20,692 nucleotides of DNA, from positions 1 to 20,692 of the IMG/VR virus record IMGVR_UViG_3300025769_001073; one strand, 5' to 3'. This document shows positions 1-15,786 of this stretch, piece after piece. The notes beneath the pieces are model-generated. The model saw only the letters and a list, made by a program, of their open reading frames with translations, was not told the origin of the DNA and did no database searches. Positions within the stretch are counted from its first letter, which is position 1. Each line of letters starts with the position of its first letter. The position numbers and the translations under genes are program-made. The stretch is from a virus.

Positions 1-1316
1 GTCCCAAACAACATACGGCATGGCTGAAGTTGACTGATAAAACTACTAGATTTATTGGTTTTGGAGGAGCAGCAGGGGGCGGAAAATCTTGGCTCGGAGT
101 TAATTGGTTAATCATAATGTGCTTTACTTACCCTAAAACAAGGTGGGGACTAGGAAGGAAGGAGTTAAAAAACCTAAAAAGGAGTACTTTGCCTACATTC
201 TTCAAGGCATTAAGCAATTATGGTATTACAGACAAGCATTACAACTACAATCAGCAATATGATTTCATTAGATTTACTAATGGATCTGAGATTTTCCTTG
301 TAGATATGTCTTATAACCCTTCTGATCCTGAATTTACTAAGTTTGGAGGTCTAGAGCTTACAGGCGCTTTCGTAGATGAGAGCAATGAGTGTACAGAGAA
401 GGCAATTGACATCTTATCTAAGAGGATTAGGCACATGAACAAGGAATATAACCTTATTCCAAAGGTTTTAGAGACATTTAACCCTTCTAAAGACCATGTT
501 TATTGGAGATACCATAAACCTGAGAAAGAAGGCACTTTAGAGCTAGAATACGCCTTTATTAGAGCATTAGTGACAGATAACCCAGATGTAGATCCTGAGT
601 ACATCAAACAGCTTCAAATGGGAGATAAAGCTACTATTGAGAGGTACTTTCATGGTAACTTTGACTACGATGATGATGATTCTAAGTTAATGGACTACGA
701 TTCTATCTGTGCAGTGTTTGAAAACAAGGAAATACCAGAGGGTGAGGGATATATTTCTGTTGATATTGCTCGTTTTGGTAAAGATGCTACGACTATATTT
801 GTTTGGAGTGGATGGAGAGTGATTCATGCAGACGTTATAGACAAAGGATCTACTACAATGACAGCACAAAGGATAGTAGAGATGGCAGAAAGGTACGGAA
901 TACCTAGCAACAACGTCATTATTGATGAAGATGGTGTAGGTGGGGGAGTAGTAGACATGATGAGAACAAGATTTCCATCTGTTAAAGGGTTTGTTTCTAA
1001 CAAATCTCCTATCAAAAGAGGTAACGGTGACCACAACTACAACAATATTAAGTCTCAATGCTACTTTATGTTAGCTAAGTTCGTAAACGAAGGTAGAATC
1101 TACTTCCTTCCTAAAGACAAGGAAATAAAACAGAAGCTAGTACAAGAATTAGAGGTTGTAAAGAAGAAACACGTAGATAAAGATGGTAAGAACATGGTTC
1201 TGCCTAAAGAAGATATAAAGAATATAATAGGGCGATCTCCTGACTACTCTGACGCATTAATGATGAGGATGTGGTTTGAATTAGGTCGTAATGAAACTAA
1301 AATTGAATGGCTATGA
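1..1316 (+). CDS. terL: Phage terminase large subunit (5' partial)
   Basis: This is the ATPase-nuclease motor that packages phage DNA into the prohead through the portal. The reading frame is open from the window edge. A TTG at 30 is not the real start, because the in-frame codons before it read PKQHTAWLK, a typical adenine-binding Q motif. Counting from the TTG, Walker A is GGAAGGGKS (12-20), Walker B is FVDE (D116, E117), and the coupling motif is TFNP (149-152). The C-terminal nuclease domain has its acidic residues at VDIARFGKDAT (D245), IIDEDG (D299) and SPDYSDAL (D405, D408). All motor and nuclease motifs are present, so the enzyme looks intact. The gene ends in an ATGA overlap with the next gene. 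The small terminase subunit is not in the window and probably lies just upstream. Confidence 0.95.
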   Translation, partial: PKQHTAWLKLTDKTTRFIGFGGAAGGGKSWLGVNWLIIMCFTYPKTRWGLGRKELKNLKRSTLPTFFKALSNYGITDKHYNYNQQYDFIRFTNGSEIFLVDMSYNPSDPEFTKFGGLELTGAFVDESNECTEKAIDILSKRIRHMNKEYNLIPKVLETFNPSKDHVYWRYHKPEKEGTLELEYAFIRALVTDNPDVDPEYIKQLQMGDKATIERYFHGNFDYDDDDSKLMDYDSICAVFENKEIPEGEGYISVDIARFGKDATTIFVWSGWRVIHADVIDKGSTTMTAQRIVEMAERYGIPSNNVIIDEDGVGGGVVDMMRTRFPSVKGFVSNKSPIKRGNGDHNYNNIKSQCYFMLAKFVNEGRIYFLPKDKEIKQKLVQELEVVKKKHVDKDGKNMVLPKEDIKNIIGRSPDYSDALMMRMWFELGRNETKIEWL

Positions 1317-2062
1317 TAACAATTAAGCTCTTAGACAACGAATACGAGGTTATTAACGAATGGGAAGACCTAACTATCCAAAAGTTTGCGAAAGTTCAGC
1401 AGATCTGCGATAAAGCACCTAAAAAGCTACAAAAGCTACTAGGTCATGTTTATCTTGGAGAAAAAGAAGAGATTAATGAGATGGAGTTTACTAGCAGAGA
1501 ACAGATAAAAACATTTCCTAAGTTCTATGGTGATATGTTGGAGGAAGTTAGTAATATTCCTAAGAAAGTTATTAATCAAATTGACTATCAAGCTAGACAA
1601 GAGTTTTTTAACACTTACTTACTAAAGTTTGCCATTGGTTCTTTGTATGCTCCTGTAGATATTCCAGAGGTAACAACAGAAGAGTTTAAATTTGAGGGAG
1701 AAACGTATGTGCTTCCTAAGAAAAGGACTGTATTAGGAGAAGAAAGAGAGATGGGTTATATTTCTACTATACAATTCACAGAAGCTGCTGACTTAGACCT
1801 TTATATGAGAGACTTAGACGATAAAAACTATTCTGTATTGGCTAATATTGTTTCTATTATCTGTCTCAAGGAGGGAGAGGAATATGACGAGGAAGTTTGC
1901 TTAAAGAGAGCAGAAAAATTCAAGGATGTGACGATGGATATAGCATGGGATGTTTTTTTTTACTTGGGCGAACTATTAGATACATACACGAAAGCTATCC
2001 TCAGCTCTTCTCAGGAAAAACTAAAGCTAAGTATGCAAGCGCAGCTAAAGCGTCAGGATTAA
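1307..2062 (+). CDS. Putative tail assembly chaperone, short (G-like) form
   Basis: This 251-residue soluble protein has no membrane segment. It is probably the zero-frame product of a tail-assembly-chaperone pair, which keeps the tape measure soluble while the tail tube polymerises around it. The basis is its form and context rather than a recognised motif: an N-terminal beta-rich part (ITIKLLDNEYEV), a helical middle and an amphipathic helical C-terminus. A run of nine T lies near its end, beyond which a second open frame continues. Two starts are possible, ATG at 1307 or ATG at 1313. The second gives a classic ATGA overlap with the terminase stop and is preferred. The gene is longer than the lambda G protein (about 140 residues) and sits far upstream of the tape measure gene, which is unusual. 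It could instead be an unrelated small structural protein. Confidence 0.55.
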   Translation: MAMITIKLLDNEYEVINEWEDLTIQKFAKVQQICDKAPKKLQKLLGHVYLGEKEEINEMEFTSREQIKTFPKFYGDMLEEVSNIPKKVINQIDYQARQEFFNTYLLKFAIGSLYAPVDIPEVTTEEFKFEGETYVLPKKRTVLGEEREMGYISTIQFTEAADLDLYMRDLDDKNYSVLANIVSIICLKEGEEYDEEVCLKRAEKFKDVTMDIAWDVFFYLGELLDTYTKAILSSSQEKLKLSMQAQLKRQD

Positions 2063-2253
2063 ACGGATTTGGATGGTATTTACAATTAAAATCAGTAGCT
2101 GAGAAAGGAATCTTCACTTTTGGCAACAATTCACCTATAAAAAGCGTAGAAAAGACTAATCTTTACGACTTTTTGACATACATTGCTGCAAACGCCTCAG
2201 AAGCGTTGTACCAAGAGAAAATAAGAGAATATGAAACTGGAAGAACTCGTTGA
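1307..2253 (+). CDS. Putative tail assembly chaperone, frameshifted (GT-like) form
   Basis: This is a predicted fusion of about 315 residues. The first 218 residues are shared with the short form. After the codon at 1958-1960 the ribosome would slip back one base and read on from TTA at 1960 to the stop at 2251-2253, adding about 97 residues. The added part (SGLNGFGWYLQLKSVAEKG, then a helical end) looks like real protein. The same frame before the T run reads as nonsense, and its only early start is a poor TTG at 1897. The fusion's stop overlaps the next gene by 23 bases, whereas the short form leaves a 168-base gap in an otherwise gapless operon. Chaperone pairs made by -1 slippage are well known in long-tailed phages. 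A sequencing error in the homopolymer, or a true single fused gene, cannot be excluded. Confidence 0.6.
1953..1961 (+). promoter_or_regulatory. Slippery T9 run, candidate -1 frameshift site
   Basis: Nine T in a row follow GATG within the putative chaperone gene. In the zero frame the codons are GTT TTT TTT TAC. The heptamer T TTT TTT at 1954-1960 fits the X XXY YYZ pattern for a -1 tandem slip, giving TTT TTT TTA CTT. A run this long could also support slippage by RNA polymerase. I found no convincing downstream stem-loop or pseudoknot. Confidence 0.6.
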
Positions 2254-2920
2254 TAAAATTGAATCACTAGTAATATCCGATCCTAACATAGATACGTTCC
2301 TTTTCGATGAACCTGAAAAAGTGAACGAACTTCACGCTACAGACTACCCTCTATTATTAATGAATCCTCTTGAGGACACCATTGATCCTAGAGCAAACGA
2401 GCAAGACTACAACCTAGAGTTGTTCTTGTTAGATACTTACTACCAAGACGATACTAAATCTCTTAGAGAAAAGTATTCTGATATGCAAATATGGGGGTTA
2501 CAGTTAATACAAGAAATATATGACGTTGCTCAAATAAGAAACGTAGGTGACGTAACAGTAAACAGAGGAACAGAGCAGTATAACGATAACTTAGCTGTTG
2601 TGCAATTCTCTTTTGTTGTTAGAGTACATGAATGTATGAAGTTGTTGGAGAAGCCATATAATCTAGTAGCAACGACTGCATCTTCTTCACAAATAAACTT
2701 AGCATGGAATGACAGCGAAACTACAGAATCAAATTATGAAGTTTCTCAAAGTATTGACGATGTTACATGGACAACTATTGATACAATAGCTGCCGACTCT
2801 ACTTCCTATTCTGCTACTGGTCTTGATCCTAGCACTCTTTATTACTTTCGTGTTAGGGCGACAACAGCTACAAATAGATCTCCATATTCTAACACAGCTT
2901 CTGACACAACTTCAGCATAA
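2231..2920 (+). CDS. Tail terminator-like protein with C-terminal fibronectin III domain
   Basis: The protein has 229 residues in two parts. Residues 1-135 resemble tail-terminator/tail-completion proteins of Bacteroidetes phages: an N-terminal helix (LEELVDKIESLV), the DYPLLLMNP segment, and a closing strand (NLAVVQFSFVVRVHE). Such proteins cap the tail tube and join it to the head. Residues 142-229 form a clear fibronectin type III domain, with PYNLVATTASSSQINLAW, a YEV strand, SATGLDPSTLYYFRVRA and a Thr/Ser-rich end. Phage FN3 domains usually sit on exposed virion surfaces and may bind carbohydrate weakly. The start at 2231 overlaps the end of the frameshifted upstream frame, and the stop overlaps the next start as TAATG. 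The FN3 call is firm; the terminator role is inferred from shape and position. Confidence 0.65.
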   Translation: MKLEELVDKIESLVISDPNIDTFLFDEPEKVNELHATDYPLLLMNPLEDTIDPRANEQDYNLELFLLDTYYQDDTKSLREKYSDMQIWGLQLIQEIYDVAQIRNVGDVTVNRGTEQYNDNLAVVQFSFVVRVHECMKLLEKPYNLVATTASSSQINLAWNDSETTESNYEVSQSIDDVTWTTIDTIAADSTSYSATGLDPSTLYYFRVRATTATNRSPYSNTASDTTSA

Positions 2921-3480
2921 TGCCTAGATTCGATTGGATACATACAGAGGCAGCAACAGTAAAATGGGCAAGAGCTGTCGCCGAAGCTCTACGTAAAGAA
3001 CTTAAACAACAAGGACACGTTGCAAGTGGTAGGTTGTTAGATAGTATTGGACTAGGAGACTTAGATACTAGAGGTGGTAAAGTAAAGCAAACTATTAAAG
3101 CTTTTGGTAGAGGAGAGAAGCTAGATAAGAGACAAGCAAACGCTGTTGTTAGTATTAATCAGCTACTAAGGTGGATGAGTAATAAGAACAAGACTACTAT
3201 TGGAAGTAAGAAGTTTGTATGGTCTACTATTAAAGAGAAGAAAAGAATAGCTTATGCTTTAAAGAGGGCAATAGAGAAGGAAGGAATTCCAACGGCTAAC
3301 TCTTATAATTTCTCTAATAACGGTAAGAGAACAGGATGGATTTCATTACCATTCAAAAGAAGTAAAATAGAAGTTAACAAGAAGGTGATACCAGCAATAA
3401 CAAAGGATATAGTTGAGTCTATATCTAGGATCTTAGAGAGGTTAGCAAGTAGATACCCTAACATGAAAATATTAAAATAA
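2920..3480 (+). CDS. Putative tail-completion / HK97 gp10-like protein
   Basis: This basic protein of 186 residues is rich in Lys and Arg and has no signal peptide or membrane segment. An N-terminal helix (AATVKWARAVAEALRKELK) is followed by ASGRLLDSIGL, which resembles the 'sG.L.dSi' strand of HK97 gp10-like and related neck proteins. There is a helical region (RIAYALKRAIEKEGIPT) and a C-terminal helix (DIVESISRILERLASRY). These proteins act at the head-tail junction or finish the tail tube. The neighbours fit that role: a terminator-like gene before it and a tail gene after it. The gene starts and ends in one-base TAATG overlaps, implying coupled translation. The family assignment rests on weak motif resemblance. 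Confidence 0.5.
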   Translation: MPRFDWIHTEAATVKWARAVAEALRKELKQQGHVASGRLLDSIGLGDLDTRGGKVKQTIKAFGRGEKLDKRQANAVVSINQLLRWMSNKNKTTIGSKKFVWSTIKEKKRIAYALKRAIEKEGIPTANSYNFSNNGKRTGWISLPFKRSKIEVNKKVIPAITKDIVESISRILERLASRYPNMKILK

Positions 3481-4724
3481 TGGCAATAACATTAAATTCA
3501 CAGCCAACGCTAAATAATATTCATAGTCCTTATAGACCTATGGAGATTAAGGTTACGTCTAACGCTGCTACTATAAATAAGATGAAGTGTTTTATTCACT
3601 TAAATGATAGCGCAACAGCAGACAACGCTAGTACGCCTATTGTACTAGATCCTGACTTTGGAACAACAAATGAGTTTACTTTTGATCTGTCTGCTTATCT
3701 TGCTGGGTTGGATTCTTTAACTTACGACATACAAACTCATGGTTCTGTTGTTTCTTTGGCTACAACGAGTAATTCTATTAAGAAGGTTAGTTGCACATTT
3801 ACAGAGGTATTGATTTCTTCAGGACTTCTTTCTGATGGAGCTTCTTTAAGTCACACTAGTATATCTGATTGGTTCGTTATCAATGGAGCTTGGCAACACG
3901 ATCAAATATCTAGCCAGTTTACAGATTTTAAGCTACAACCTACTGGAAACAAATACTTTTTAACAAACTATAGAGGCTATAGAGACATAAAACTTTCAGA
4001 AAGTTATTATTTAAGTTTCTTTACAACTAAAGGAGGTTCAACTGGAGAGCCAGCTTATCTTCAGGTTATAAGGTGGACTGGAAGAAATGCAACAGGATCT
4101 AGTAGCACTAAATATAGAACTTTTGTATTTACCAAAAATAGATTTCATTTAGCCTGTGGTGCTTTAAATATAAATAATACTTTTGGAAGTTGGTATAGTG
4201 ATTTAGGTGTTACCCCAACAAGTAATGCTTCCTTAAATTCTAGTTATGGTTCTTATCAGCTTGCATTTTATGATGCTTCGAGCCAACAGATCTCTGAACG
4301 ATTAACTTTTAACTTAGATTTTGATGAGAATGAAGATCACACAAGAATAAAGTTTATGAATAGACTAGGTGCTTTTGAATACTTTACTTTTAAAGGATAT
4401 AGAGAAAGATCGGTTGACGTTAGAAAACAATATTACAAGTCACCGCTACCTAGTTCTTATACTGTAGATCAAGGTGGAGACAGAGTGTTAAGTGTTGACT
4501 CAAGAGATGAGTTTGTTGTCCACTCTGGTGCTTTAAATGAAGAGCAAAGATTGTGGCTAATTGAGTTAATTGAGGGTGTTGAATGCTACGTAGTAGAAGG
4601 ATCTAACCATATCCCAATTAAAGTTAGGGCAGGGAAAACTAAGATAATAGATGAAGGTAATGGCTTATTTACCATCAAGATGACATATCAATACGCAAAC
4701 GAAAACAGAAGACAGAATGGCTGA
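3480..4724 (+). CDS. Putative distal tail / baseplate structural protein
   Basis: This 414-residue beta-rich protein has no signal peptide or membrane helix. The middle (about 120-270) is rich in Ser, Thr, Asn and Tyr, as in fibre or receptor-contact domains. The C-terminal third (about 275-410) carries IKFMNRLGAFEYFTFKGY followed by a charged segment, a pattern I associate with a tail protein of Bacteroidetes phages found next to the tape measure and baseplate genes. It ends with a strand-rich part (LNEEQRLWLIELIEGVE). A distal-tail role, joining the tube tip to the baseplate or fibre, fits its place immediately before the large baseplate-type protein, which it overlaps by eight bases. I do not recognise a named domain. 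Confidence 0.5.
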   Translation: MAITLNSQPTLNNIHSPYRPMEIKVTSNAATINKMKCFIHLNDSATADNASTPIVLDPDFGTTNEFTFDLSAYLAGLDSLTYDIQTHGSVVSLATTSNSIKKVSCTFTEVLISSGLLSDGASLSHTSISDWFVINGAWQHDQISSQFTDFKLQPTGNKYFLTNYRGYRDIKLSESYYLSFFTTKGGSTGEPAYLQVIRWTGRNATGSSSTKYRTFVFTKNRFHLACGALNINNTFGSWYSDLGVTPTSNASLNSSYGSYQLAFYDASSQQISERLTFNLDFDENEDHTRIKFMNRLGAFEYFTFKGYRERSVDVRKQYYKSPLPSSYTVDQGGDRVLSVDSRDEFVVHSGALNEEQRLWLIELIEGVECYVVEGSNHIPIKVRAGKTKIIDEGNGLFTIKMTYQYANENRRQNG

Positions 4725-7700
4725 TATTAGGTTAATATTAACAAGTTTAGAATTAGAATTAGACGTACCACAGGATAGACAGTTTCCTTTGGCACTTAAC
4801 TATACTGCTGGTAGTTTAAAGCATATAGAGTCTAGGAGTACAGATTTTTCACTTGAGTTTAGAATACCAGCTAATAAAAAGAATAAAACAGCCTTAGACC
4901 ATTTAGAATCTACAAACATAGAGGATGGTAACCTTGTATTAGGAAGAAATGCTTGTAGGGTTACTATTGATAATATGCCTGTATTTGCAGGTGATTTTAG
5001 GCTGCTAGGATCAGTAAATGATAGAGGTCACGAGGAATTTAAGTGTATTATCTTAGGTTCTGGAATGGGATGGGCAGAGTCAATGAAGGGTAAGACTCCT
5101 AGAGATTATGATTGGGGTACGCATGACTATACAAAAGCAGAAATAGAAAAGTTTTGGGATAACGATGGTGCTGTTAGTTCAGCTACTGCTGTTACATCAT
5201 ACAACGATGGGGGTATTACTTATCCTTTAATAAACTACGGTGCTTGGGGAGAAACAAAATATGTAACAGTAGAAGATTTTAAACCTGCAATGTTTATGAG
5301 ATCTTTCTTTGAGAAAGCATTTACTGCTGAAGGATATACGCTTCAAGCTGACACAGACTCTAATGATTTCTTCCATACGACTAATAACCCTATAGCAGAT
5401 AAAATTATATTTCCATTTACAGGAACAGGATGGAAAGAAGAAGCTACCCTAGTTCCAGACACTACCTTTGAAGCTGCGAGGACTGATGTAAAAACTTACG
5501 GTATAAGAACTAAGTTGATAAAGAGATCTCGAGCTTATGGACAAACAGAAAGGGGGAGGACAACGGTACAGGCAGGGTTAGCTAATGCAGGTACTGCTAT
5601 TAATCAGAACCAATCAGTTAAGATATGGCTTAGAGACGCAACGTCTATTCCTAGAGATGGTTCAGGTAATATATCAATAGATGGTAACACTTACGTTGCA
5701 TTGCCTCAAGCACGTAATTCTTTATTAAAATCTCCTCTAGGAACGGTTTATAGACTTATAGGATACGGAACAGCTTATCACAGCGCACAAGGCATTACAG
5801 CAGATTATATAGAAATACTAGGTCAAGCAGGCGCAGCAGGTCAGGCTAATGTAATCATACCTTCTGTGGGATTCCCTTACGTTGCAACTTTTGATGTTGT
5901 TTTCGGAGAGCTAACTGGAGGGGTTTTTAATCCAGTTCCAATTGATTTCGACTCAGCATCTCCTAATCCTTCTGATGTATTTAACACAACAACAAATAGA
6001 TATACTGCTCCAACAGCAGTAAGATCTAGATTTAAGTTTGACTGTGAGATGTATAGTTTTAGTGACAAACAAGAAAACGTAGGTACATTTACTTTCAGAA
6101 TAATACACAAATCAGGATCAACAGAGACTATTATTAGTCAAGAAACGGTTTCTCCTACTGATACTTCTAACATGGATGAGTATGCACTGACACCATATAA
6201 TAGAGAAGCTTCAGTTATTGCTATAGGTTTTGAAGAATCTGGTGTTGTAAATCTTGTTGCTGGTGACCAAATATATGTAGATTGTGTTTTAAACCATACA
6301 AACAGTTCTGCTGCTAATCGTATTTTATTCGGTAATGCTAATGTAGGCGCAGAAAACATCACATTGTTAAGCGTAAAAAATGCAAACTTAAAATCTATTC
6401 CTCAATCTGCTATAATAAAAGGATATACAGGATTACCCTTAAACACAGTTCTTGATGATAGATACAATTCACTACAGTATATTAAAGGGTGCATACACGC
6501 TTTTAACTTAATGATAAAGACAGATCCAGTAACTAAGACAGTTATTGTTAAGTCAAGAGATGAGTTCTATGATGATAATATTAATGCTGTAGATTGGACA
6601 GATAAGTTAGATATAAAAAAACAGTTTGACATTAGTTATCTTAATCTGTATAAGAGAAGACTTAACTTTAAATTCAAAGATGATAGCGCAGATGCTTATT
6701 TGAGTGAATTAAATAGAATTTCAGATTCGGATTATGGAGCTGTAACAGATAGTTTATCAGACAGGTTTGATGATGGAGAGCAAAAGATGGAAAATCCTTT
6801 ATTTGCTTATACTCATCAGATGATAGACAGATCCATACTAGGTAAGGTTAATAAGTCTAATAAAGGTATAGTTTTAGCTAGGATGTGGAATCAATACTCT
6901 CCTAACTCTATAGCGCCATCTAAGCACTACAACTATAAGCCTAGATTATTAATCTTTGAGAACGCACAGCAAAACACAGGAAGTACATGGCTTTTTGAAG
7001 GTGCAGACCAATCTACCTGTCCTTCTGCTTTAGTGGATGACTACGGTAGTGCTGCTGATAATCTTGATTTTGATCTGCATTTAGGGTATAACAACTCTTC
7101 TGACAAAGGGCTGTTTGAAACGTATTACCAGAATACAATAAGCACAATAGAAAAGGGAACTAAATTATCTGCTCCATTCTATTTGACAAAAAGAGATATA
7201 CATAACTTTGATATTAGTAAGCCTGTCTATATTGGACAGCCTGCTAATTTAAAAGGGTATTGGTTAGTAGATAAAATATCTAACTTTCTTCCTAGCACAG
7301 ACACAACTACAACGGTTGAGTTAATTAAGAGAGAAGGTTTCGACAGAAGGGTAGTAGAAACTACTTACGATAATATTATCATGAAAGATGATAAAGATTG
7401 GGTAGCTGAAGAAGAAGAGTATATTGATATAGGTGATAAAGGCGGAGGAGACAGTAAAGCTGACGCAATAGATCAATCTAATTTATCTGACGATTCAGAG
7501 AAAGGTAATAAAGGCACTCTTTACAGTAAAGAAGTTGCTGCTGGCGGTGGCGGTGGTAGCGGTAGCGGCGGTAAGTATGGAAATTTAAGAGATGCTGCTA
7601 GGTTTAATGCAACTAATACAAAAGACACAGAATCTTTTGAAGAGGCAGAGGAAGAGGCAAGAAGGGATGATTTTGATAACTCTAAGAATGTAATTGGAAT

Positions 7701-8070
7701 TTCTGATTACGATGCTATGTCTACTAATCCTTTTGCTGTTAGGCATGATAGCAACAGCAAAGACGTTTCAATGGTACAGAGAGCTTCAGGGAACGTGTCT
7801 AAGAGAGGTACAGGTAACTTTGTAACTGGTAAACATAATGTTGCTGCTGGTGCTGGACAAACTGTGGTAGGTCAATATTCTAAGCCATCAAGTACTTCAG
7901 CGTTCTCTGTAGGTACAGGAGATAGTGACTCGGAAAGATACAACGCATTAAGCGTAGATAAAAGTGGAGTAGTAAGAGAAGGCGGTGGCGCACTTATAGA
8001 TGAGATTGACGATGAACATTCTCAGATATATGAAGAAATAAACGGTGAAATGGTTAAAGTAACAATATAA
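4717..8070 (+). CDS. Large tail/baseplate protein with C-terminal YadA-head-like segment
   Basis: This 1117-residue protein is the largest in the window. Its N-terminus (IESRSTDFSLEFRIPANKKN, about 35-55) resembles tail-tip or baseplate-hub proteins of Bacteroidetes phages. The next 800 residues are mostly beta-rich. From about 905 it becomes acidic and low in complexity, then has a Gly/Ser linker (GGGGGSGSGG, about 943-953). Residues about 1034-1086 (GNFVTGKHNVAAGAGQTVVG, later FSVGTGDSDSERYNALSV) look like the YadA-type head repeat and peptidase-G2-like stretches seen in trimeric phage fibres. The protein is therefore probably trimeric and exposed at the tail tip. It lies between a distal-tail candidate and the tape measure and overlaps both. 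No peptidoglycan hydrolase motif was noticed. Confidence 0.6.
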   Translation: MADIRLILTSLELELDVPQDRQFPLALNYTAGSLKHIESRSTDFSLEFRIPANKKNKTALDHLESTNIEDGNLVLGRNACRVTIDNMPVFAGDFRLLGSVNDRGHEEFKCIILGSGMGWAESMKGKTPRDYDWGTHDYTKAEIEKFWDNDGAVSSATAVTSYNDGGITYPLINYGAWGETKYVTVEDFKPAMFMRSFFEKAFTAEGYTLQADTDSNDFFHTTNNPIADKIIFPFTGTGWKEEATLVPDTTFEAARTDVKTYGIRTKLIKRSRAYGQTERGRTTVQAGLANAGTAINQNQSVKIWLRDATSIPRDGSGNISIDGNTYVALPQARNSLLKSPLGTVYRLIGYGTAYHSAQGITADYIEILGQAGAAGQANVIIPSVGFPYVATFDVVFGELTGGVFNPVPIDFDSASPNPSDVFNTTTNRYTAPTAVRSRFKFDCEMYSFSDKQENVGTFTFRIIHKSGSTETIISQETVSPTDTSNMDEYALTPYNREASVIAIGFEESGVVNLVAGDQIYVDCVLNHTNSSAANRILFGNANVGAENITLLSVKNANLKSIPQSAIIKGYTGLPLNTVLDDRYNSLQYIKGCIHAFNLMIKTDPVTKTVIVKSRDEFYDDNINAVDWTDKLDIKKQFDISYLNLYKRRLNFKFKDDSADAYLSELNRISDSDYGAVTDSLSDRFDDGEQKMENPLFAYTHQMIDRSILGKVNKSNKGIVLARMWNQYSPNSIAPSKHYNYKPRLLIFENAQQNTGSTWLFEGADQSTCPSALVDDYGSAADNLDFDLHLGYNNSSDKGLFETYYQNTISTIEKGTKLSAPFYLTKRDIHNFDISKPVYIGQPANLKGYWLVDKISNFLPSTDTTTTVELIKREGFDRRVVETTYDNIIMKDDKDWVAEEEEYIDIGDKGGGDSKADAIDQSNLSDDSEKGNKGTLYSKEVAAGGGGGSGSGGKYGNLRDAARFNATNTKDTESFEEAEEEARRDDFDNSKNVIGISDYDAMSTNPFAVRHDSNSKDVSMVQRASGNVSKRGTGNFVTGKHNVAAGAGQTVVGQYSKPSSTSAFSVGTGDSDSERYNALSVDKSGVVREGGGALIDEIDDEHSQIYEEINGEMVKVTI

Positions 8071-10610
8071 TGGCAGATAACAAGAAAATATTAATTGAGA
8101 TAGTTACCAAGACATCTGGTGCTGAGAAAAAGGTAAAGAAGACAGGAGACGCTGTTGAGAAGACAGGTAAACAAGCAGACAAAGCTAGTAAGAGTTTCTT
8201 TGGATTAGGAAAAACTATGAAAGCAATCGCTAGAGGTTTTATTATTGTTAAGTCTTTTCAATTATTAGCTAGGTCAGTATCTTTTGCGGCTAAGACTGCC
8301 GCAGATTTTGAGTTTATAATGGCAAAAGTAAAAGCTACATCAAAAGCTTCTGAAGCTCAATTTATTAAACTAACAAATTCTGCTAAAGCTCTTGCTGCTG
8401 GTACAATGTTCACAGCCACAGAGGTTGGAGAACTTCAACTAGCTTACTCTAAATTAGGTTTCACTACTGATGAAATCCTAGCAGCAACAGAGGCTACTCT
8501 TCAATTAGCAACAATTACAGGTGATAGTTTATCTAGTGCTGCTGATGTGGCAGGTGCTGCTGTCAGAGGGTTTGGACTAGACGCTTCAGAGACTCAAAGA
8601 GTTGTAGATGTTATGGCTGCGTCTTTTAGTTCTAGTGCTTTAAATTTAGAGAACTTTAAACAGTCTATGAAAACTGTTGCTCCGATTGCAAGAGCTGCAA
8701 ACGTTAGTATAGAAGATACTTCTGCATTGTTGGCTAAATTAGCAGATGCTGGACTAAGAGGTACAAGAGCAGCAACAGGATTAAAAAACATAATGTCGGC
8801 TTTAACAGATCCTACTTCAGATTTAGCTAAAGAATTAGGTTTTACTGTAAAGAATGGTGAGGGAGTAAAACAAGCGTTTAGAGAAATGTCTAAAAGAGGT
8901 ATAGACTTATCTAAAGCTACTCAATTAGTAGACGAAAGATCTAAAGCTGCTTTTATCACTTTAGCCAATGGTATAGATGATGTAGACGCTTTAGCTGATG
9001 CTTTTGAAAACGCTGAAGGATCTGCTGAGTCTATGTCTAAAACTATTTCAGATACTTTAGTTGGCGACTTTAAAAAGCTTGAAGCAACAATAGAGTCTGT
9101 TATTCTTAGTAAAGAAAGTGCAATAAACAAAGGACTTAGAAAACTAGCACAGCTTTCAACAGAAATGGTTTCGTTTTTTAATCCTGTTACAGAAGCTGTA
9201 CTAAATGCTGAAGCAGAATTTAAAAAGTTTGAAACTACGATAGGTACTTTAGATGAAAAAGAAAGAGTTGCTGCCTTAACAAATAAGATGAGAGAGCTTA
9301 GAGGTGAGAACGAGGAAATGATAAAAACTTTTAAAGGTCTTGGTTTTGACAATGAGTTTATAAAAGAAATAAAAGAGTTTGAAGGTCTTTCTTTTACAAA
9401 AGGAACTAAAGACATAAGAACAAACATAAAGCTAATAGAATTAATAAAAAAAGAAATTAAAGAAACTTTCAAGGCTGTAGAAGAAGGCAATAAAGAAATA
9501 AAAAAAGGTGACGCTACAGAGGCATTAAACGAGACAAGCATTGAGCTTTTAAATTTAGACGATGGATTCACAAAACTTAATGTCACATTTGACGAGTTTA
9601 TGGAGAAATTAGATGAGATACCTGATGAACTGCCTACAGTAGCAAGTATATTTATGGATTACGCTGAAGCTATAGGTGAAGTAGTTTTAGCAAACGAAGA
9701 ATATATAAATGGCGTAACTGATGTTATGTTCTCGGCAAATGAATTGTTTCAAGTAATGCAAGAGAATAAACTAAATAGCATCATTGCTTCTAATGACGCT
9801 GAGTTTGAAGCCTTCTCTCAAGCTCAAGATGATAGGTTAGCTAGGTACGACCTAGATCAAGAGGAAGAAATAGCTTTATTTGAAGGTACTCAAGAACAGA
9901 AAGCTCAGTTTGAAAAGCAAAAAGGATTAGAAAGACTAGAGTTTGAAAAACAACAAGAACAAAAAAGAGAAGCTTTAAGACAAAAACAATTAAATGCTGA
10001 GAATAAGATAGCAGAAGCAGCGTTTAAAGCAAATAAGAGATTCGCTGTCGCTGGGATTGCTATAAACTTAGCTAGAGAGATTTCTGCAATTGCTGTATCT
10101 TCTGCTGGAAACCCAGCTAACGCTTTTACTTTTGGTGCTGCTGGTGCTGGACAGTTTGCTATTCTCTCTGGTCTTGCAATAGCTAACGCAGGTTTGCAAA
10201 CAGCAGCAGTTTCTTCTCAGAAGTTTGTACCTAAGACATTCCAAGATGGAGGTATGATTGAAGGTGCATCACACGCAGAAGGTGGAGTTCCTTTTACTGT
10301 TGCAGGTAGAGCAGGGTTTGAAGCAGAGGGTGGAGAGTATATCTTCTCTAAAAACACAGTAGACAGATTAGGTACAGGACTTTTAGACGCTATAAACTTC
10401 GGTGGTGCTGCCCCAAGATTGTTTGCTGATGGTGGTGCTGTATCAAGAGCTTCTGTTGCTAGTTCTGCAATGAATCAATCCGAAATGGCACAGATGATTG
10501 GGGAGGTTGTTGCTTCTTCTGTTGCACAAATACCAGTAGTAAATGTAGCTACAGAAACAGATAGTTTGTCCAGAATGGTACAAAACGCTGAAGCTATGGC
10601 AACTATATAA
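8070..10610 (+). CDS. Tail tape measure protein (TP901 family)
   Basis: This protein sets tail length and occupies the tail lumen. Its 846 residues carry a TP901-type core at about 85-250 (DFEFIMAKVKATSKAS, then LQLAYSKLGFT, AGAAVRGFGL, and LADAGLRGTRAATGLKNIM). The middle is helical and Lys/Glu-rich. A charged coiled coil spans about 580-655, and a hydrophobic stretch rich in Ala, Gly and Ile at about 658-715 may insert into the host membrane during DNA entry. The C-terminus has the typical FQDGGMIEGASHAEGG and GEYIFSK motifs. At about 0.15 nm per residue the tail would be roughly 125 nm long. Start and stop are clear: TAATG overlaps the gene before, and the stop precedes the intergenic palindrome. 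It lies upstream of the capsid gene, unlike most siphoviruses. Confidence 0.93.
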   Translation: MADNKKILIEIVTKTSGAEKKVKKTGDAVEKTGKQADKASKSFFGLGKTMKAIARGFIIVKSFQLLARSVSFAAKTAADFEFIMAKVKATSKASEAQFIKLTNSAKALAAGTMFTATEVGELQLAYSKLGFTTDEILAATEATLQLATITGDSLSSAADVAGAAVRGFGLDASETQRVVDVMAASFSSSALNLENFKQSMKTVAPIARAANVSIEDTSALLAKLADAGLRGTRAATGLKNIMSALTDPTSDLAKELGFTVKNGEGVKQAFREMSKRGIDLSKATQLVDERSKAAFITLANGIDDVDALADAFENAEGSAESMSKTISDTLVGDFKKLEATIESVILSKESAINKGLRKLAQLSTEMVSFFNPVTEAVLNAEAEFKKFETTIGTLDEKERVAALTNKMRELRGENEEMIKTFKGLGFDNEFIKEIKEFEGLSFTKGTKDIRTNIKLIELIKKEIKETFKAVEEGNKEIKKGDATEALNETSIELLNLDDGFTKLNVTFDEFMEKLDEIPDELPTVASIFMDYAEAIGEVVLANEEYINGVTDVMFSANELFQVMQENKLNSIIASNDAEFEAFSQAQDDRLARYDLDQEEEIALFEGTQEQKAQFEKQKGLERLEFEKQQEQKREALRQKQLNAENKIAEAAFKANKRFAVAGIAINLAREISAIAVSSAGNPANAFTFGAAGAGQFAILSGLAIANAGLQTAAVSSQKFVPKTFQDGGMIEGASHAEGGVPFTVAGRAGFEAEGGEYIFSKNTVDRLGTGLLDAINFGGAAPRLFADGGAVSRASVASSAMNQSEMAQMIGEVVASSVAQIPVVNVATETDSLSRMVQNAEAMATI

Positions 10611-10625
10611 AAATTTTTAACCAAT

Positions 10626-10668
10626 AGTGTATACCTTTTAGGTCATTATGACGTATAAGGTATATACT
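10626..10668. promoter_or_regulatory. Intergenic 43-base imperfect palindrome
   Basis: The 81-base gap between the tape measure and protease genes holds an inverted repeat centred on T10647. Of 21 facing pairs, 18 are Watson-Crick, one is G-T (10629/10665) and two are mismatched (10638/10656 and 10641/10653). The outer arms read AGTGTATACCTT and AAGGTATATACT. The inner part is GTCAT-T-ATGAC. No T run follows, so it is not a standard terminator. It could be an operator, a transcript-processing hairpin, or part of a promoter region for the head genes. A run AAAAATTTTT lies just upstream at 10609-10618. Confidence 0.6.
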
Positions 10669-10691
10669 GTTCAAAATAATAGACAGACAAT

Positions 10692-12038
10692 ATGAAATTT
10701 AGATCAGACGTATGCTTCTCAAATTCAGGTTTAGACACCATTGATGAGCACACAGGAGTAATAAAAGGCGTTACTTTAGCTAGAGAAGGAGTTGCAAAAG
10801 GACATGGTGTTCATTTGGATTCTAAATTCATCTCTGACTTAGTAGAACTAGGTAACAGTCAAGAAGAAGGTGTAAAAGCAAGATTTGGTCATCCTAGCAT
10901 GACTTCAGATGCGTTCGGTACTTACATCGGTAGATATAAGAATTTTAGAATAAAAGATAAGAAAGCAAAAGCTGACTTATATATGGATGAGGTTTCTAAG
11001 AAGTCGCCTAAAGGTGATTTATATAGCTATGTATTTGCTATGGCAAGAAGCAATCCAGATATGTTCGGTAACAGTATTGTTTTTAAATCTGGTGAATCTA
11101 GATATGAAAATGAATTAGATGAAAACGAGAACGTAATTCGTAAAGAGTATGTTTCTATTGTTGGACTAACTGCTTCTGATTTAGTAGATACACCTGCTGC
11201 AACAGATTCTTTATTCTCTGCTGATATGCAGTTAAGAGAGTCTTACAGCGACTATCCTGAAGCTGCTGTTAATAACGCTAAGAGAGGAATTAAATTAAAT
11301 GAGAAAGTAAACAATAGATGTGCTACTGATGTTGGTAAACAACGTGCGCAACAGATTTCTAAGAAGGAAGCACTATCTATGGATACTATAAAAAGAACTT
11401 TTTCTTATCTGTCAAGAGCAGAGGAATATTACAATCCAGATGATCCTGAAGCTTGTGGTACTATCTCTTATCTTCTATGGGGAGGTAAGTCTATGAAAGC
11501 ATGGACAGAGAGAAAAATTAATGAAGTTGAAAATAATTATAAATCAAAAAATCAAGAAATGGAAAAATCATTTACAGACAAAGTAGTAGATGTTCTTAAA
11601 AGCTTCGGTATTACAAAAACTGAAGAGGTTACAGAATTATCAGAAGAAACTACAGAAGTTACAACAGAAGTAGAAGAAACTACTGAAGAAGTTGTTGAGG
11701 AAACTGTTGCAGAAAATGCAACAACTGAAGAAATTACTGCTGAAGAATCTACTGATGCTATTGCTCACGCTGTTGAGACTTTCGAAGCTGAAAGAGAAGA
11801 GTTAGTAAAAGAGTTTAACTCTAAAGAAACTGACTTAAATCACGCATTAGCTGAGTTAGGAGAAGAAGTTAAATCTCTTAAAGCTGAGTTAGAAGCAAAA
11901 GAAACAGAATTAGCTGCTTTCAATGTAAAGCCTACTGAAGTAGAAGGAAACGAAGATCCATCTATCAAAGGAGAGGAAAAGCAATTAAGCGAAAACGCTA
12001 GTGTTCTTAAAGACTTCTTAAAGGACATTAAAGAGTAA
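10692..12038 (+). CDS. Head maturation protease fused to scaffold
   Basis: The 448-residue protein has three parts. Residues 1-170 resemble prohead serine proteases: GVKARFGHPSM has a likely catalytic His67 and MFGNSIVFKSGE a likely Ser128. These enzymes cut scaffold and capsid delta domains during head maturation. Residues about 185-280 (YPEAAVNNAKRGIKLN, TDVGKQRAQQI, TIKRTFSYLSR, LLWGGKSMKAW) match a small helical domain I recall as attached to phage proteases and other head proteins, of unknown function. Residues 300-448 are very acidic, Glu/Thr-rich and then coiled-coil (EVKSLKAELEAKETELAAF), as expected of scaffold. The gene lies directly upstream of the capsid gene, as usual. The leader has no Shine-Dalgarno. 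The catalytic residue assignments are inferred by motif position only. Confidence 0.75.
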   Translation: MKFRSDVCFSNSGLDTIDEHTGVIKGVTLAREGVAKGHGVHLDSKFISDLVELGNSQEEGVKARFGHPSMTSDAFGTYIGRYKNFRIKDKKAKADLYMDEVSKKSPKGDLYSYVFAMARSNPDMFGNSIVFKSGESRYENELDENENVIRKEYVSIVGLTASDLVDTPAATDSLFSADMQLRESYSDYPEAAVNNAKRGIKLNEKVNNRCATDVGKQRAQQISKKEALSMDTIKRTFSYLSRAEEYYNPDDPEACGTISYLLWGGKSMKAWTERKINEVENNYKSKNQEMEKSFTDKVVDVLKSFGITKTEEVTELSEETTEVTTEVEETTEEVVEETVAENATTEEITAEESTDAIAHAVETFEAEREELVKEFNSKETDLNHALAELGEEVKSLKAELEAKETELAAFNVKPTEVEGNEDPSIKGEEKQLSENASVLKDFLKDIKE

Positions 12039-12054
12039 CTAAATAAGCACAATT

Positions 12055-12234
12055 ATGGCAAACATTAAAATCAAGTTTATTGTAAATGGTGAGGAAAGAG
12101 AGGGTGAGATTCCTGAAGCTGACTTCGCTAATTACGAGAAAGCTTATAAAGCAAAAAAGGTTGGAGGATCTGCACCAAAGAAAGCTGTTAAGGCTGAATT
12201 AAAGGAAGAACCAAAAAAAAGTAAAAAGAAATAA
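12055..12234 (+). CDS. Small basic protein between scaffold and capsid genes
   Basis: An open frame of 59 codons runs from ATG at 12055 to TAA at 12232-12234. The product begins MANIKIKFIVNGEEREGEI, a likely beta hairpin, followed by a short helical part (DFANYEKAYKAKK) and a Lys-rich tail ending EEPKKSKKK. It sits 16 bases after the protease/scaffold stop and 26 bases before the capsid start, on the same strand, and fills most of the gap. Codon use matches the neighbours. I do not recognise the family. Position and charge suggest a head accessory protein, possibly one that contacts DNA or the acidic scaffold, but that is a guess. Confidence 0.7.
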   Translation: MANIKIKFIVNGEEREGEIPEADFANYEKAYKAKKVGGSAPKKAVKAELKEEPKKSKKK

Positions 12235-12260
12235 TTAATTAACAAAACAAACAAAGAAAC
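12235..12260 (+). promoter_or_regulatory. A/C-rich, G-poor leader of the capsid gene
   Basis: The 26 bases before the capsid ATG consist almost only of A, C and T (one G) and contain no Shine-Dalgarno match. Unstructured A-rich leaders of this sort are typical of highly translated Bacteroidetes genes. A similar leader precedes the tail-tube candidate at 13639-13667. Confidence 0.4.
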
Positions 12261-13595
12261 ATGGCTAATTTAATGTCACATTCGTTAAGCTTCTCTAAAG
12301 AGAGTGTTAGCGAGTATTTTATTAAACCTTTATTCATTCAGTCTGATATCAAAGATATCGTTACTGTAAGAACAGACATCAAGAACTCTGAGAAATTAGA
12401 CTTCATTGATAACTTAGAGAAGATCACTAAAGCTTATGCTCAAGGTACTTCTTTCACTACATCTACAGGTGTTACTATCACACAGAAGACTCTTTCTGTA
12501 TCTGATATGAAAGCTGAAGTTGCACAAAACGGTAAAGCGTTCTTAAACTACGTTAAAGAATCTTTATTGAAAAAAGGTGTTGACGAGAATGACATCGGTG
12601 ATACTTTATTCGAAGAGATCTTAATGGAGATCTACATGGGTGGTATCGCAAGAGATTTCCAAAGACAAGTATTCTTCGGTGATACTGCTAAGGAAGCTAG
12701 AACTTCAGAAGCTCCTAACGGAACTTTAGATGCTGACTACAAAGAATACAATGGATTCTGGACTAGAATGATTAATGATTTTGATTCTGCTGCTTTACCT
12801 GCTGCACAATACCAAGATATTAACTCTTCTACTTACCAAACAACTGTTGCTGTTAAGCAAGTTGATACTGGTGTTGTAACTGGTGCTTCTGGTACTTTAG
12901 GACTAGTAATTAACGGTGTTACTTATACAGAGGCTTTCGATAGTGATATCGCTACTACTATCGCTAACTTCGTTGCATCTCACGCTGCTGCGGTTTTAGC
13001 TAGAGAAGGTAAATTAGTTTTATCTGGTACTGCTACTGACTTAATTGTTACTGCTGGTATCGCTGGTATGAAGCAAATCGTTACTGACGCTTCTACTACA
13101 ATGGCTTCTAACACAGCTACTACTGTTGCTAACGTTGCTAACACAACTTTAAAGACAGATGCTGCTTTAACTGCTTTCAAAGCGTTATGGTCTAAAATGC
13201 CTAACTCTTTAAGAAAGTTATTCAAGCAAGAAGGTAAGATTATGGTTACTGCTTCTGTTGCTGATAACTACACTGATACTATCGAAAGTTTAAATGGTTC
13301 TGATGCTGCTTACTTCACATTGAGAGATGGTGAGAAAGTTAAAGCTTTCAGAGGTGTACAAATCGTAGAAAGAGAAGAGTGGGATGAGCATATCGAAAAT
13401 GATTTCGATTCAGTAAGACCACACAGAATCTTATTCACTATTCCTAGAAACTTAGTTGTAGGTACTGATGGGATTTCTGATGATACTAAGATTGAGTCTT
13501 GGTATGAGCAATTAACTCAAAACAGACACGTAAGAGTTGAGTACAAAGCTGGAACACAGTATGTACACGAAGATTACATAGTTGCTGCTTACTAG
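12261..13595 (+). CDS. Major capsid protein (HK97-fold)
   Basis: This is the shell protein of the head. The 444-residue product begins with a helical N-arm (SLSFSKESVSEYFIKPLFI) and has features typical of HK97-fold capsid proteins: long helix-rich segments (AFLNYVKESLLKKG, ILMEIYMGGIARDFQRQVFFGD), a P-domain-like part, and a C-terminal half with IMVTASVADNY, FRGVQIVEREEW, RILFTIPRNLVVGTDG and a closing strand. Residues about 196-290 look like an inserted Ala/Thr-rich domain (GTLGLVINGVTYTEAFDSD), making it longer than a minimal capsid protein. Codon use is strongly uniform (TTA, GCT, ACT, GGT), as in very highly expressed genes. It follows the protease/scaffold and has its own terminator at 13609-13638. 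Confidence 0.85.
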   Translation: MANLMSHSLSFSKESVSEYFIKPLFIQSDIKDIVTVRTDIKNSEKLDFIDNLEKITKAYAQGTSFTTSTGVTITQKTLSVSDMKAEVAQNGKAFLNYVKESLLKKGVDENDIGDTLFEEILMEIYMGGIARDFQRQVFFGDTAKEARTSEAPNGTLDADYKEYNGFWTRMINDFDSAALPAAQYQDINSSTYQTTVAVKQVDTGVVTGASGTLGLVINGVTYTEAFDSDIATTIANFVASHAAAVLAREGKLVLSGTATDLIVTAGIAGMKQIVTDASTTMASNTATTVANVANTTLKTDAALTAFKALWSKMPNSLRKLFKQEGKIMVTASVADNYTDTIESLNGSDAAYFTLRDGEKVKAFRGVQIVEREEWDEHIENDFDSVRPHRILFTIPRNLVVGTDGISDDTKIESWYEQLTQNRHVRVEYKAGTQYVHEDYIVAAY

Positions 13596-13608
13596 TATAT
13601 TCTTTCTT

Positions 13609-13638
13609 GGGGAGTGAATTAAGTAGCTCCCCTTTTTT
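13609..13638 (+). terminator. Rho-independent terminator after capsid gene
   Basis: The stem GGGGAG (13609-13614) pairs with CTCCCC (13627-13632) around a 12-base loop and is followed by six T (13633-13638). It begins 14 bases after the capsid stop codon. It probably ends or reduces the capsid transcript and may also stabilise its 3' end. Confidence 0.85.
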
Positions 13639-13667
13639 AATTTAACAACAACAAAATAACATAAATC
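13639..13667 (+). promoter_or_regulatory. G-free A/C-rich leader of the tail-tube gene
   Basis: The 29 bases between the capsid terminator and the ATG contain no G (for example AACAACAACAAAATAAC) and no Shine-Dalgarno. The leader resembles that of the capsid gene and would leave the start site unstructured. Because a terminator lies immediately upstream, expression needs read-through or a promoter inside this region. I cannot point to a convincing promoter. Confidence 0.4.
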
Positions 13668-14207
13668 ATGGCAATAACTGCAAACTTAGCTGATTCGTGT
13701 AGTGCAAATTCTGGAGGAATTAGACGTATTGCGTTTATTTCTTTAAGTGACGTTGCAGAGGGAGCAATCTCTGTGACTTCTGGAGAGATTGACACTATCA
13801 CTTTAGCTACAGGAAAAGAGTTCTTCGAATACGATGCTGAACAAGACACAATCGAATGGAGAGAGAACGGAGAAATGGTAAACGGTTCTTTAAAGTACAC
13901 AGAAGAATTAGAGCTTTATATTAGAGGTAACAACAAAACAAACAGAGATGCTATCGTTGCGTTAGTAGAAGATCTTTGTGGTGTTTTAGCTATCGCAGAG
14001 GACTCTAACGGAACTATCTTTTTATTAGGATGGTCTGAGGCTTTAGACTTAGATAGACCTTTAAAAATGGCATCTGATGCTTCAGGATCTGGAAAAGAAT
14101 TAACTGACCTAGCTGGATCAACAATTACAATGGCGTGTATGTCTCCTACAAAAGCTTTCCCTATTACTGGGATTACTTGGGCAACACTTACTACACCTGC
14201 TCCATAG
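13668..14207 (+). CDS. Putative major tail tube protein
   Basis: The 179-residue beta-rich protein begins MAITANLADSCSANSGGIRRIAF and contains EYDAEQDTIEWRENGEMVNGS, then a helix (NRDAIVALVEDLCGVLAIAED). It ends with a KMASDASGSGKELTDLAG segment and a final strand (STITMACMSPTKAF). I associate this pattern (repeated strands, a central helix, then 'SDA.GSG..LTD..G') with proteins following the capsid gene in Bacteroidetes siphoviruses, thought to form the tail tube. Supporting context: it is a separate, apparently highly expressed unit with its own leader and terminator beside the capsid gene, as expected for the two most abundant virion proteins. A head decoration protein is the main alternative. 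Confidence 0.55.
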   Translation: MAITANLADSCSANSGGIRRIAFISLSDVAEGAISVTSGEIDTITLATGKEFFEYDAEQDTIEWRENGEMVNGSLKYTEELELYIRGNNKTNRDAIVALVEDLCGVLAIAEDSNGTIFLLGWSEALDLDRPLKMASDASGSGKELTDLAGSTITMACMSPTKAFPITGITWATLTTPAP

Positions 14208-14224
14208 TAGAGTAGAACAAATAC

Positions 14225-14252
14225 AAAGAGGGAGGGTTTTCCTCCCTTTTTT
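14225..14252 (+). terminator. Rho-independent terminator after tail-tube gene
   Basis: The stem GGGAGG (14230-14235) pairs with CCTCCC (14241-14246) across a five-base GTTTT loop. Flanking A-rich and T-rich bases extend the stem, and six T follow (14247-14252). It begins 18 bases after the stop codon. This is a stronger structure than the terminator after the capsid gene because its loop is shorter. Confidence 0.9.
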
Positions 14253-14273
14253 AATAACATTAAAATAAATCTT

Positions 14274-14483
14274 ATGGCTTACAAATATAAAGTAGAAGAG
14301 GCATTTAAAGATTCAACTGTTCACAGAGGTGAAAAATCATATAAGTTAGCTTCATGCTCTCAAAAAGATTTAAAGAAACTACATGACTCAGGATTAAAGT
14401 TTATCCTAGAAGAAGTAGTGCAAGCAAAGGAAGAAGTAAAAGCAACAGAAGATAAAGAATCTGTAGATGGAAAAGAAGGATAA
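14274..14483 (+). CDS. Small hypothetical protein upstream of portal
   Basis: The 69-residue protein has a probable beta start (MAYKYKVEEAF), a middle with SYKLASCSQKDLKKLHDSGL, and an acidic tail (EEVVQAKEEVKATEDKES). The middle resembles short phage proteins that end a 'thrL..as.edL..L...G...i' hairpin-helix, often found beside head or connector genes, but I have no firm family. Its leader (14253-14273) is G-free and follows the tail-tube terminator. The last 17 bases overlap the portal gene in another frame, which suggests coupled translation with the portal. Confidence 0.6.
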   Translation: MAYKYKVEEAFKDSTVHRGEKSYKLASCSQKDLKKLHDSGLKFILEEVVQAKEEVKATEDKESVDGKEG

Positions 14484-15786
14484 GCAGTTAGCTAATAATC
14501 AAGTGGAAACAGCGTTTTCAAGCAGCGTAATTAATACTACAAGTGCCTCTACTATTAAAGAGATATCTAAGGTAGATCATAACCCTAGAGACTATGTGTC
14601 TTTTGGAGCAGATAATTTGTTTCCACAAGGATTATCTATACTTAACAGAAGGTCTTCAACACACAGAAGTATCTTAAACAACAAGGTTATATACTCTTTA
14701 GGTAGAGGATTTATAACAGAAGGTAATGCTCCGTTGGAAGCTTTCATTAAGCAAGTAAACAACAACAGAGAGAGTTTAAGAAAGGTTCTAAAGAAGATAT
14801 TCAGTGATTGGTATAGCTTTGGTAACGCTTATTTAGAGGTAGTTCTAGTACCTAACGGTAATCCTCAGTTCTTCCATAAGGATGCAACTAAAATTAGAAT
14901 ACACAAAGACAGAGAACACGTTATTGTTCACCCAGATTGGAGACAGTATGAAGGTAAAAAGAGGTTTGCTAAGACTTTGCCTATATACCCTAACTTCGAG
15001 GAGATTGATGGTGCTCAGAGAGCTATATTCCACTTTAAGCAATATGAACCTGAGTTCTCTGATTATGGAGTACCTGATTGGATTGCTGCTTTGGATGCAG
15101 CAGCTATTGGGTACAAAACTAATAGATGGAACTTATCACGTCTTGAGAATAGTTTTCAAGTATCTGGGATACTAGAGATAGTAGGAGATATGTCTGCTGA
15201 GGACATGAAGAAGGTTAAGAAAGACCTAGCAAAATCGTTCTCAGGAGAGGAAAATGTAGGTAAGCTATTAGCTATAACAAAACAATTTAGTGAGAGTGGA
15301 TCGGGAACGACATTTACTCCATTAATTCAAACAAGCGAAGGTGAATGGATAAACCTACACCAACAGTCAGACTCGGATTTAATAATTGCACATAATTGGT
15401 TCAGAAGTTTATCTGGTATCTCTGATTCTACAGGGTTTGACACCAAGAGAATTAGAAACGAATATCAGGTTGCTAAGAACACTATCATAGGAGAGAATCA
15501 AGATGCTATATTATCTGAGATTAAATACTTGATCGAGGAGTACTCTAGCATCAATCCTGAGGCATTATCTTTTAGAAATGAGTCTCCAGTATCACTTATT
15601 GATTTAATTGACGTTAATTCGATTGTAACGGTTGATGAAGCTAGAGAGAATAGTTTAGGTTTAGCTAACTACCATGATGCAGAGAAAGGTAAGAAACTAA
15701 TTTCTGAGATCAGGGAAGAGGCTATGGACAGAGGACAGCAAAGAGAAACACCTGAAACTCAGAAGGATGGCGATACAGATAACTAA
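14467..15786 (+). CDS. Portal protein
   Basis: The portal forms the dodecameric ring at one head vertex, through which the terminase pumps DNA and to which the tail attaches. The 439-residue protein has the expected length. Recognisable parts are DYVSFGADNLFPQGLSILN (42-60) near the N-terminus, LNNKVIYSLGRGFITEG, SDWYSFGNAYLEVVLVPNG, the wing/stem part (DYGVPDWIAALDAAAIGYK), the helical RLENSFQVSGILEIVG, and the C-terminal RIRNEYQVAKNTIIGENQ segment with an acidic, Gln-rich end. This order and wording match portals of Bacteroidetes phages. The gene is placed after the capsid and tail-tube genes, whereas portals normally directly follow the large terminase. It overlaps the next gene by 20 bases. 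Confidence 0.85.
   Translation: MEKKDKQLANNQVETAFSSSVINTTSASTIKEISKVDHNPRDYVSFGADNLFPQGLSILNRRSSTHRSILNNKVIYSLGRGFITEGNAPLEAFIKQVNNNRESLRKVLKKIFSDWYSFGNAYLEVVLVPNGNPQFFHKDATKIRIHKDREHVIVHPDWRQYEGKKRFAKTLPIYPNFEEIDGAQRAIFHFKQYEPEFSDYGVPDWIAALDAAAIGYKTNRWNLSRLENSFQVSGILEIVGDMSAEDMKKVKKDLAKSFSGEENVGKLLAITKQFSESGSGTTFTPLIQTSEGEWINLHQQSDSDLIIAHNWFRSLSGISDSTGFDTKRIRNEYQVAKNTIIGENQDAILSEIKYLIEEYSSINPEALSFRNESPVSLIDLIDVNSIVTVDEARENSLGLANYHDAEKGKKLISEIREEAMDRGQQRETPETQKDGDTDN

Follow-up and report, generated by a model that had tools for sequence, protein, structure and literature searches.

A conserved run of nine T is predicted to join two reading frames in a phage gene next to the terminase

Introduction

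What does a run of nine T (T9) do when it lies late in a phage gene, at a place where a move into the -1 frame would replace the end of the protein by a longer domain? The run studied here belongs to a virus record of 20,692 bases, called the window below (the whole stretch of DNA that was analysed), whose first gene codes for the terminase large subunit (terL) and whose next gene carries the run. An earlier note on this DNA had proposed that a programmed -1 frameshift at the run yields a tail chaperone of the GT type. Frameshifted tail assembly chaperones, including gpG/gpGT of phage lambda, are of a known kind (reviewed in PMC5009743). We therefore ask whether the reading frame changes at the run, whether ribosome or RNA polymerase would be the one to slip, and what the product might do.

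Results

Re-reading of the sequence bore out the layout described before: frame 0 crosses the run as GTT TTT TTT TAC and stops at 2060-2062, while the -1 frame, open over 1888-2250, stops at 2251-2253 and shares 23 bases with the next gene, which starts at 2231. If no shift took place, a 168-base gap would be left at 2063-2230. The sizes given earlier, 218 residues for the shared part and 315 for the fusion, have been corrected to 216 and 313, since the start conserved in three IMG/VR relatives (L004, L008 and L009) is the ATG at 1313 and not the one at 1307. The features of the locus are as follows:

1-1316, plus strand: terL, 5' end cut off; upstream neighbour, overlapping the start of the recoded gene
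1313-2062, plus strand: frame 0 gene of 249 residues (251 from the ATG at 1307)
1313-1960, plus strand: shared N-terminal part, 216 codons
1953-1961, plus strand: T9, the putative slip site, with the canonical in-phase heptamer T TTT TTT at 1954-1960
1960-2253, plus strand: -1 frame domain, 97 codons and a stop; predicted C-terminal part of the 313-residue fusion
1962-2062, plus strand: overlap in which frames 0 and -1 would both be read
2137-2174, plus strand: 38-nt block inside the -1 domain, an imperfect hairpin
2231-2920, plus strand: next gene
8070-10610, plus strand: gene for the tape measure protein, about 6.1 kb 3' of T9

Within the 20.7 kb window, T9 is the only A/T run of at least nine bases (the next longest is one A8), and it holds the only in-phase heptamer that opens a -1 extension of at least 35 codons beyond a 0-frame stop. 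A -1 frame ATG, absent from the earlier note, lies at 1945-1947, three codons ahead of the run. The gene order over 1-15786 is unusual: terL is followed by the recoded gene, tail genes and the tape measure gene, and then by probable protease/scaffold, capsid-like and portal genes.

The IMG/VR relatives range from 98-99% amino-acid identity (L001-L003) through 69% (L004), 67% (L008) and 59-60% (L009 and L010) to 36% (L023). The window, all of these relatives and the isolate Nonlabens phage P12024S have a run of exactly nine T, with the same phase and codon position, and the -1 domain was found in every one of the IMG/VR relatives. L023 has 43% GC and uses TTT for 46% of its Phe codons, and nevertheless keeps T9. 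The chances of T9 in six lineages, with the amino acids and local codon usage taken as given, multiply to about 2e-5 when the lineages are treated as independent. Over the first 7 kb of the window, compared with loci that extend to about 4 kb on each side of T9, the window, L004, L008 and L009 have just two exact blocks of at least 18 nt in common, namely 1946-1965 (the T9 site) and 2137-2174. A search of genome contigs gave no homologues, and direct tblastn of the window proteins against isolate phages gave no match. The next gene, syntenic in L008, L009, L011 and L023, encodes a C-terminal fn3 domain that is absent from the L023 homologue.

The earlier note had looked to homologues for a decision, and had named as contrary outcomes a run of eight or ten T, and a downstream part that is missing or has a start of its own. 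What we found is that related phages keep two frames and the heptamer at the same codon, that eight or ten T is seen in no relative, and that the -1 domain is always present with no independent start conserved. The same T9 at the same codon in distant relatives argues for a real conserved switch rather than a sequencing error.

Coding constraint changes frame along the gene. Mean pairwise pN/pS among the window, L004, L008 and L009, calculated as simple Nei-Gojobori proportions with no phylogenetic model, is 0.22 in frame 0 against 1.63 in frame -1 before the run, 0.67 and 0.45 respectively in the overlap (where pS is low in both frames), and 1.25 against 0.25 past the 0-frame stop. From these values the overlap is under constraint in both frames, after which the signal is that of frame -1. 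Such a path, from frame 0 to both and then to frame -1, is what a programmed shift at or near T9 would predict at the sequence level, and it agrees with the earlier reading that the -1 frame has meaning only after the run.

A further line of evidence comes from homologues in which both parts already form one ORF: Flavobacterium phages 2A and laban6-1, Cellulophaga phage Ingeline_1 and Microcystis phage Mea-Yong924-1 (PHROG 25418), the last of them reached via a downstream tail gene. The fused window family aligns with these proteins across the junction (hhalign E 1.2e-8), as compared with 8e-7 for the -1 domain alone, 0.02 for the unshifted protein and 0.04 or worse for shuffled or reversed controls. 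The homology extends over both parts, with the evidence coming mostly from the last 120 residues. The score is highest with the junction at T9 and drops as it is moved downstream, for which reason a later GAAAAAC (2014-2020) was rejected as the main site. The permanently fused homologues (L042, L059, L060 and L061) have no slip site at the junction. The inverse arrangement, in which a slip out of the fused frame would give the short form, was also considered for the single-ORF relatives and rejected, there being no in-phase heptamer at their junction. Phages with a permanent fusion may do without the short form.

The conserved run, the frame switch in constraint and the single-ORF alignment across the junction together make recoding at T9 very well supported, and the -1 frameshift proposed earlier stands strengthened. 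Comparison of the sequences shows selection for a -1 recoding event at T9; that it gives a 313-residue fusion is, on the same basis, very probable. One start would thus serve two proteins, of 249 residues by normal decoding and of 313 after the move to frame -1, the shift exchanging the last 33 residues for a 97-residue domain. We infer that this would happen in the cell as a minority event.

A structure search with an AlphaFold model of the 0-frame protein (pLDDT 78) led to uncharacterised phage proteins that form a family (best E 3.8e-15), and among the matches is I6R9M9 of P12024S (175 residues, E 2.9e-3). Judging from its length, I6R9M9 is P12024S gene 38, which lies directly after terL. 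In this gene the phase of T9 is the same and the -1 frame runs to its end within annotated gene 39, which is probably a misannotated fragment, the C-terminal end of gene 38 in its long form (the two genes occupy L038 23136-23830, with the T9 shift at 23578-23586). The T9 pair is also kept in the isolate P12024L and in one metagenomic relative. Between the single-ORF family and the P12024S fusion the E value is 2.1e-5. When the profile of the 0-frame part was compared directly with that of gene 38, the match was not significant; the link between the P12024S pair and the window is weak by sequence alone and is drawn from fold, place, T9 phase and a weak match of the -1 domain.

Isolate relatives of the window terL are mostly Bacteroidota phages, and the hosts of the T9 family are probably Bacteroidota. 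A T9 pair after terL was looked for in the TerL relatives 11b, phi10:1, P12002L and Versailles, and none is there. Other arrangements were noticed in isolates. Genes 38 and 39 of Flavobacterium phage 11b (17864-18528; L045 5865-6529), annotated as two proteins, have an A9 run at their -1 junction and stand directly before a tape-measure-like gene; they have the appearance of a chaperone pair with A9 as its -1 shift site. Cellulophaga phage phi10:1 (L047 4529-5228) has an unannotated ORF before gp086 that meets an A8 run and then an immediate stop; gp086 resembles the 11b -1 domain, sits in the +1 frame and also has its own ATG, and a one-A sequencing error in the A8 is possible. Salinibacter phage M8CRM-1 (L041 14987-15594) is a candidate for a further chaperone pair, with an in-phase TTTTTTG that opens a 75-codon -1 extension before a probable tape measure gene.

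Discussion

If the frame changes at T9, either the ribosome would slip in tandem on T TTT TTT or the RNA polymerase on the T9 itself, and the same protein would result. We lean slightly to the ribosome, since chaperone pairs of such kind need only low-level shifting. The polymerase, to which we give a little less than an even chance, would insert one extra U or leave out two, placing the -1 domain in frame in a subset of transcripts whose ordinary translation would give almost the same protein. What speaks for it is that the run is exactly nine in every lineage where a heptamer needs only seven, that bacterial slippage is recognised for runs of nine A/T (PMC5009743, PMC1088944), and that the apparent chaperone pair of phage 11b has an A9. 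However, the heptamer T TTT TTT suits ribosomal slippage well by itself, the outer two T's may reflect amino-acid constraint (a hydrophobic codon before and, in frame -1, another after), and polymerase slippage on T9 would be a prediction for the hosts of this family. No downstream stem or pseudoknot-like stem was found in the 80 nt after the run in six lineages (z +0.2 to +1.5), and an Rfam search gave no match; the absence of a stimulatory structure 3' of the run, as the polymerase would have it, fits ribosomal slippage as well.

The second exact block may also bear on this choice. In the 38 nt at 2137-2174 the window, L004, L008 and L009 do not differ, even at silent positions (of the invariant degenerate codons, 13 of 15 are identical, against 12 of 39 elsewhere, p 5e-4). 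The block is present in one copy per genome and in this clade only, and is not conserved in L023. A tentative idea, which we consider rather unlikely, is that the phages with an invariant T9 (probably of Bacteroidota) make the fusion by RNA-polymerase slippage, perhaps tuned by this block some 175 nt downstream, so that the chaperone-like pair would be balanced at transcription, with sister phages that have exchanged it for a permanent fusion.

As to function, the pair would act like lambda gpG/gpGT, with the shared part chaperoning the tape measure and the -1 domain recruiting the tail-tube protein. The chaperone half of the earlier proposal is a fair reading of the anatomy, given the tail module, the overlapping pair and the Ingeline_1 homologue, but no chaperone match was obtained and the gene is not directly before the tape measure. 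As in lambda, two overlapping ORFs would be joined by a -1 slip at a slippery sequence, and relatives conserve the arrangement; a position directly upstream of the tape measure is found neither in the window nor in five relatives or P12024S. As had been pointed out before, the pair is beside the terminase and away from the tape measure: the recoded gene adjoins terL in all relatives whose contigs reach far enough, T9 is about 6.1 kb from the tape measure in the window and those five relatives, and in P12024S it is 6.7 kb from the likely tape measure gene (which has no such annotation). A role in tail assembly gains support from Ingeline_1, whose single-ORF homologue is some 1 kb upstream of the tape measure gene. 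Searches of Pfam, PHROG and PDB matched no known chaperone family or solved fold, PDB giving nothing above noise; this was a weak search that leaves room for a chaperone fold, and a model of the -1 domain from AlphaFold, at pLDDT 50, was left aside. Because the role is read from the tail module and PHROG 25418, when looked up, has no assigned function, we infer by analogy that the pair works like G/GT, and do not call it a proven member. Counting against the proposal, the permanent fusions in related phages indicate that some of them do without the short form.

The fusion could also be real and be a two-form tail or head-tail protein other than a chaperone, as its place next to terL and the missing chaperone match by sequence or fold would allow. 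We regard this as improbable, since an HK97-gp10-like tail component is among the genes that separate the recoded gene from the tape measure, the Ingeline_1 homologue lies where it does, and the module has no other frameshift candidate. Recoding at T9 together with a role in tail assembly is, taken jointly, likely.

It would be far less probable that the -1 domain is a separate protein made from an internal start with no shift. The ATG three codons ahead of the run in the window, L004 and L009, or the TTG in L008 and P12024S, could serve, but the possible start is not conserved: L023 has no start codon between the last stop and the run, nor after the run until codon 75. In addition, frame -1 is unconstrained upstream of the run, both parts are joined in the single-ORF homologues, and the conserved T9 would be left unexplained. 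Homopolymers are error-prone, but a true run of eight or ten T with one continuous frame has a negligible chance, as nine T recur in independent assemblies from several metagenomes and in the isolates P12024S and P12024L, both frames of the overlap are under constraint and the relatives refute it in practice.

New to us are the family, where its gene is placed, a homopolymer signal whose length does not vary, fused relatives that dispense with the shift, and the 38-nt block; in the openly licensed literature we found no paper describing the family, the placement, the fixed-length signal or the fused relatives. The results add an unannotated recoding family, in which a G/GT-like pair need not adjoin the tape measure. 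The series from T9 pair to permanent fusion makes the role of the ratio of short to long protein testable, and with a run of nine, RNA sequencing of one isolate could answer whether ribosome or polymerase slips.

The family can be set beside three known systems. PHROG 25418 proteins match the predicted fusion by profile over the junction; they are one continuous ORF with no conserved slip heptamer there, whereas the window needs a -1 shift at 1953-1961. Genes with transcriptional slippage on A9/T9 runs, such as IS elements and mapW (PMC1088944) or Shigella mxiE and Thermus dnaX (PMC5009743), have, like the window, a nine-base A/T run that joins overlapping ORFs and is conserved in more than one divergent homologue; the window differs in having T and not A, in a phage tail gene, and in that slippage in its RNA is a prediction. 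With lambda gpG/gpGT, to which no sequence or fold match was found, the window shares one start with two predicted products, a -1 shift late in the first ORF, a tail module and an arrangement that divergent relatives keep. Unlike the lambda pair, it adjoins terL, some 6 kb ahead of the tape measure, with a shared part of 216 residues, a nine-T signal and relatives in which the two parts are permanently fused.
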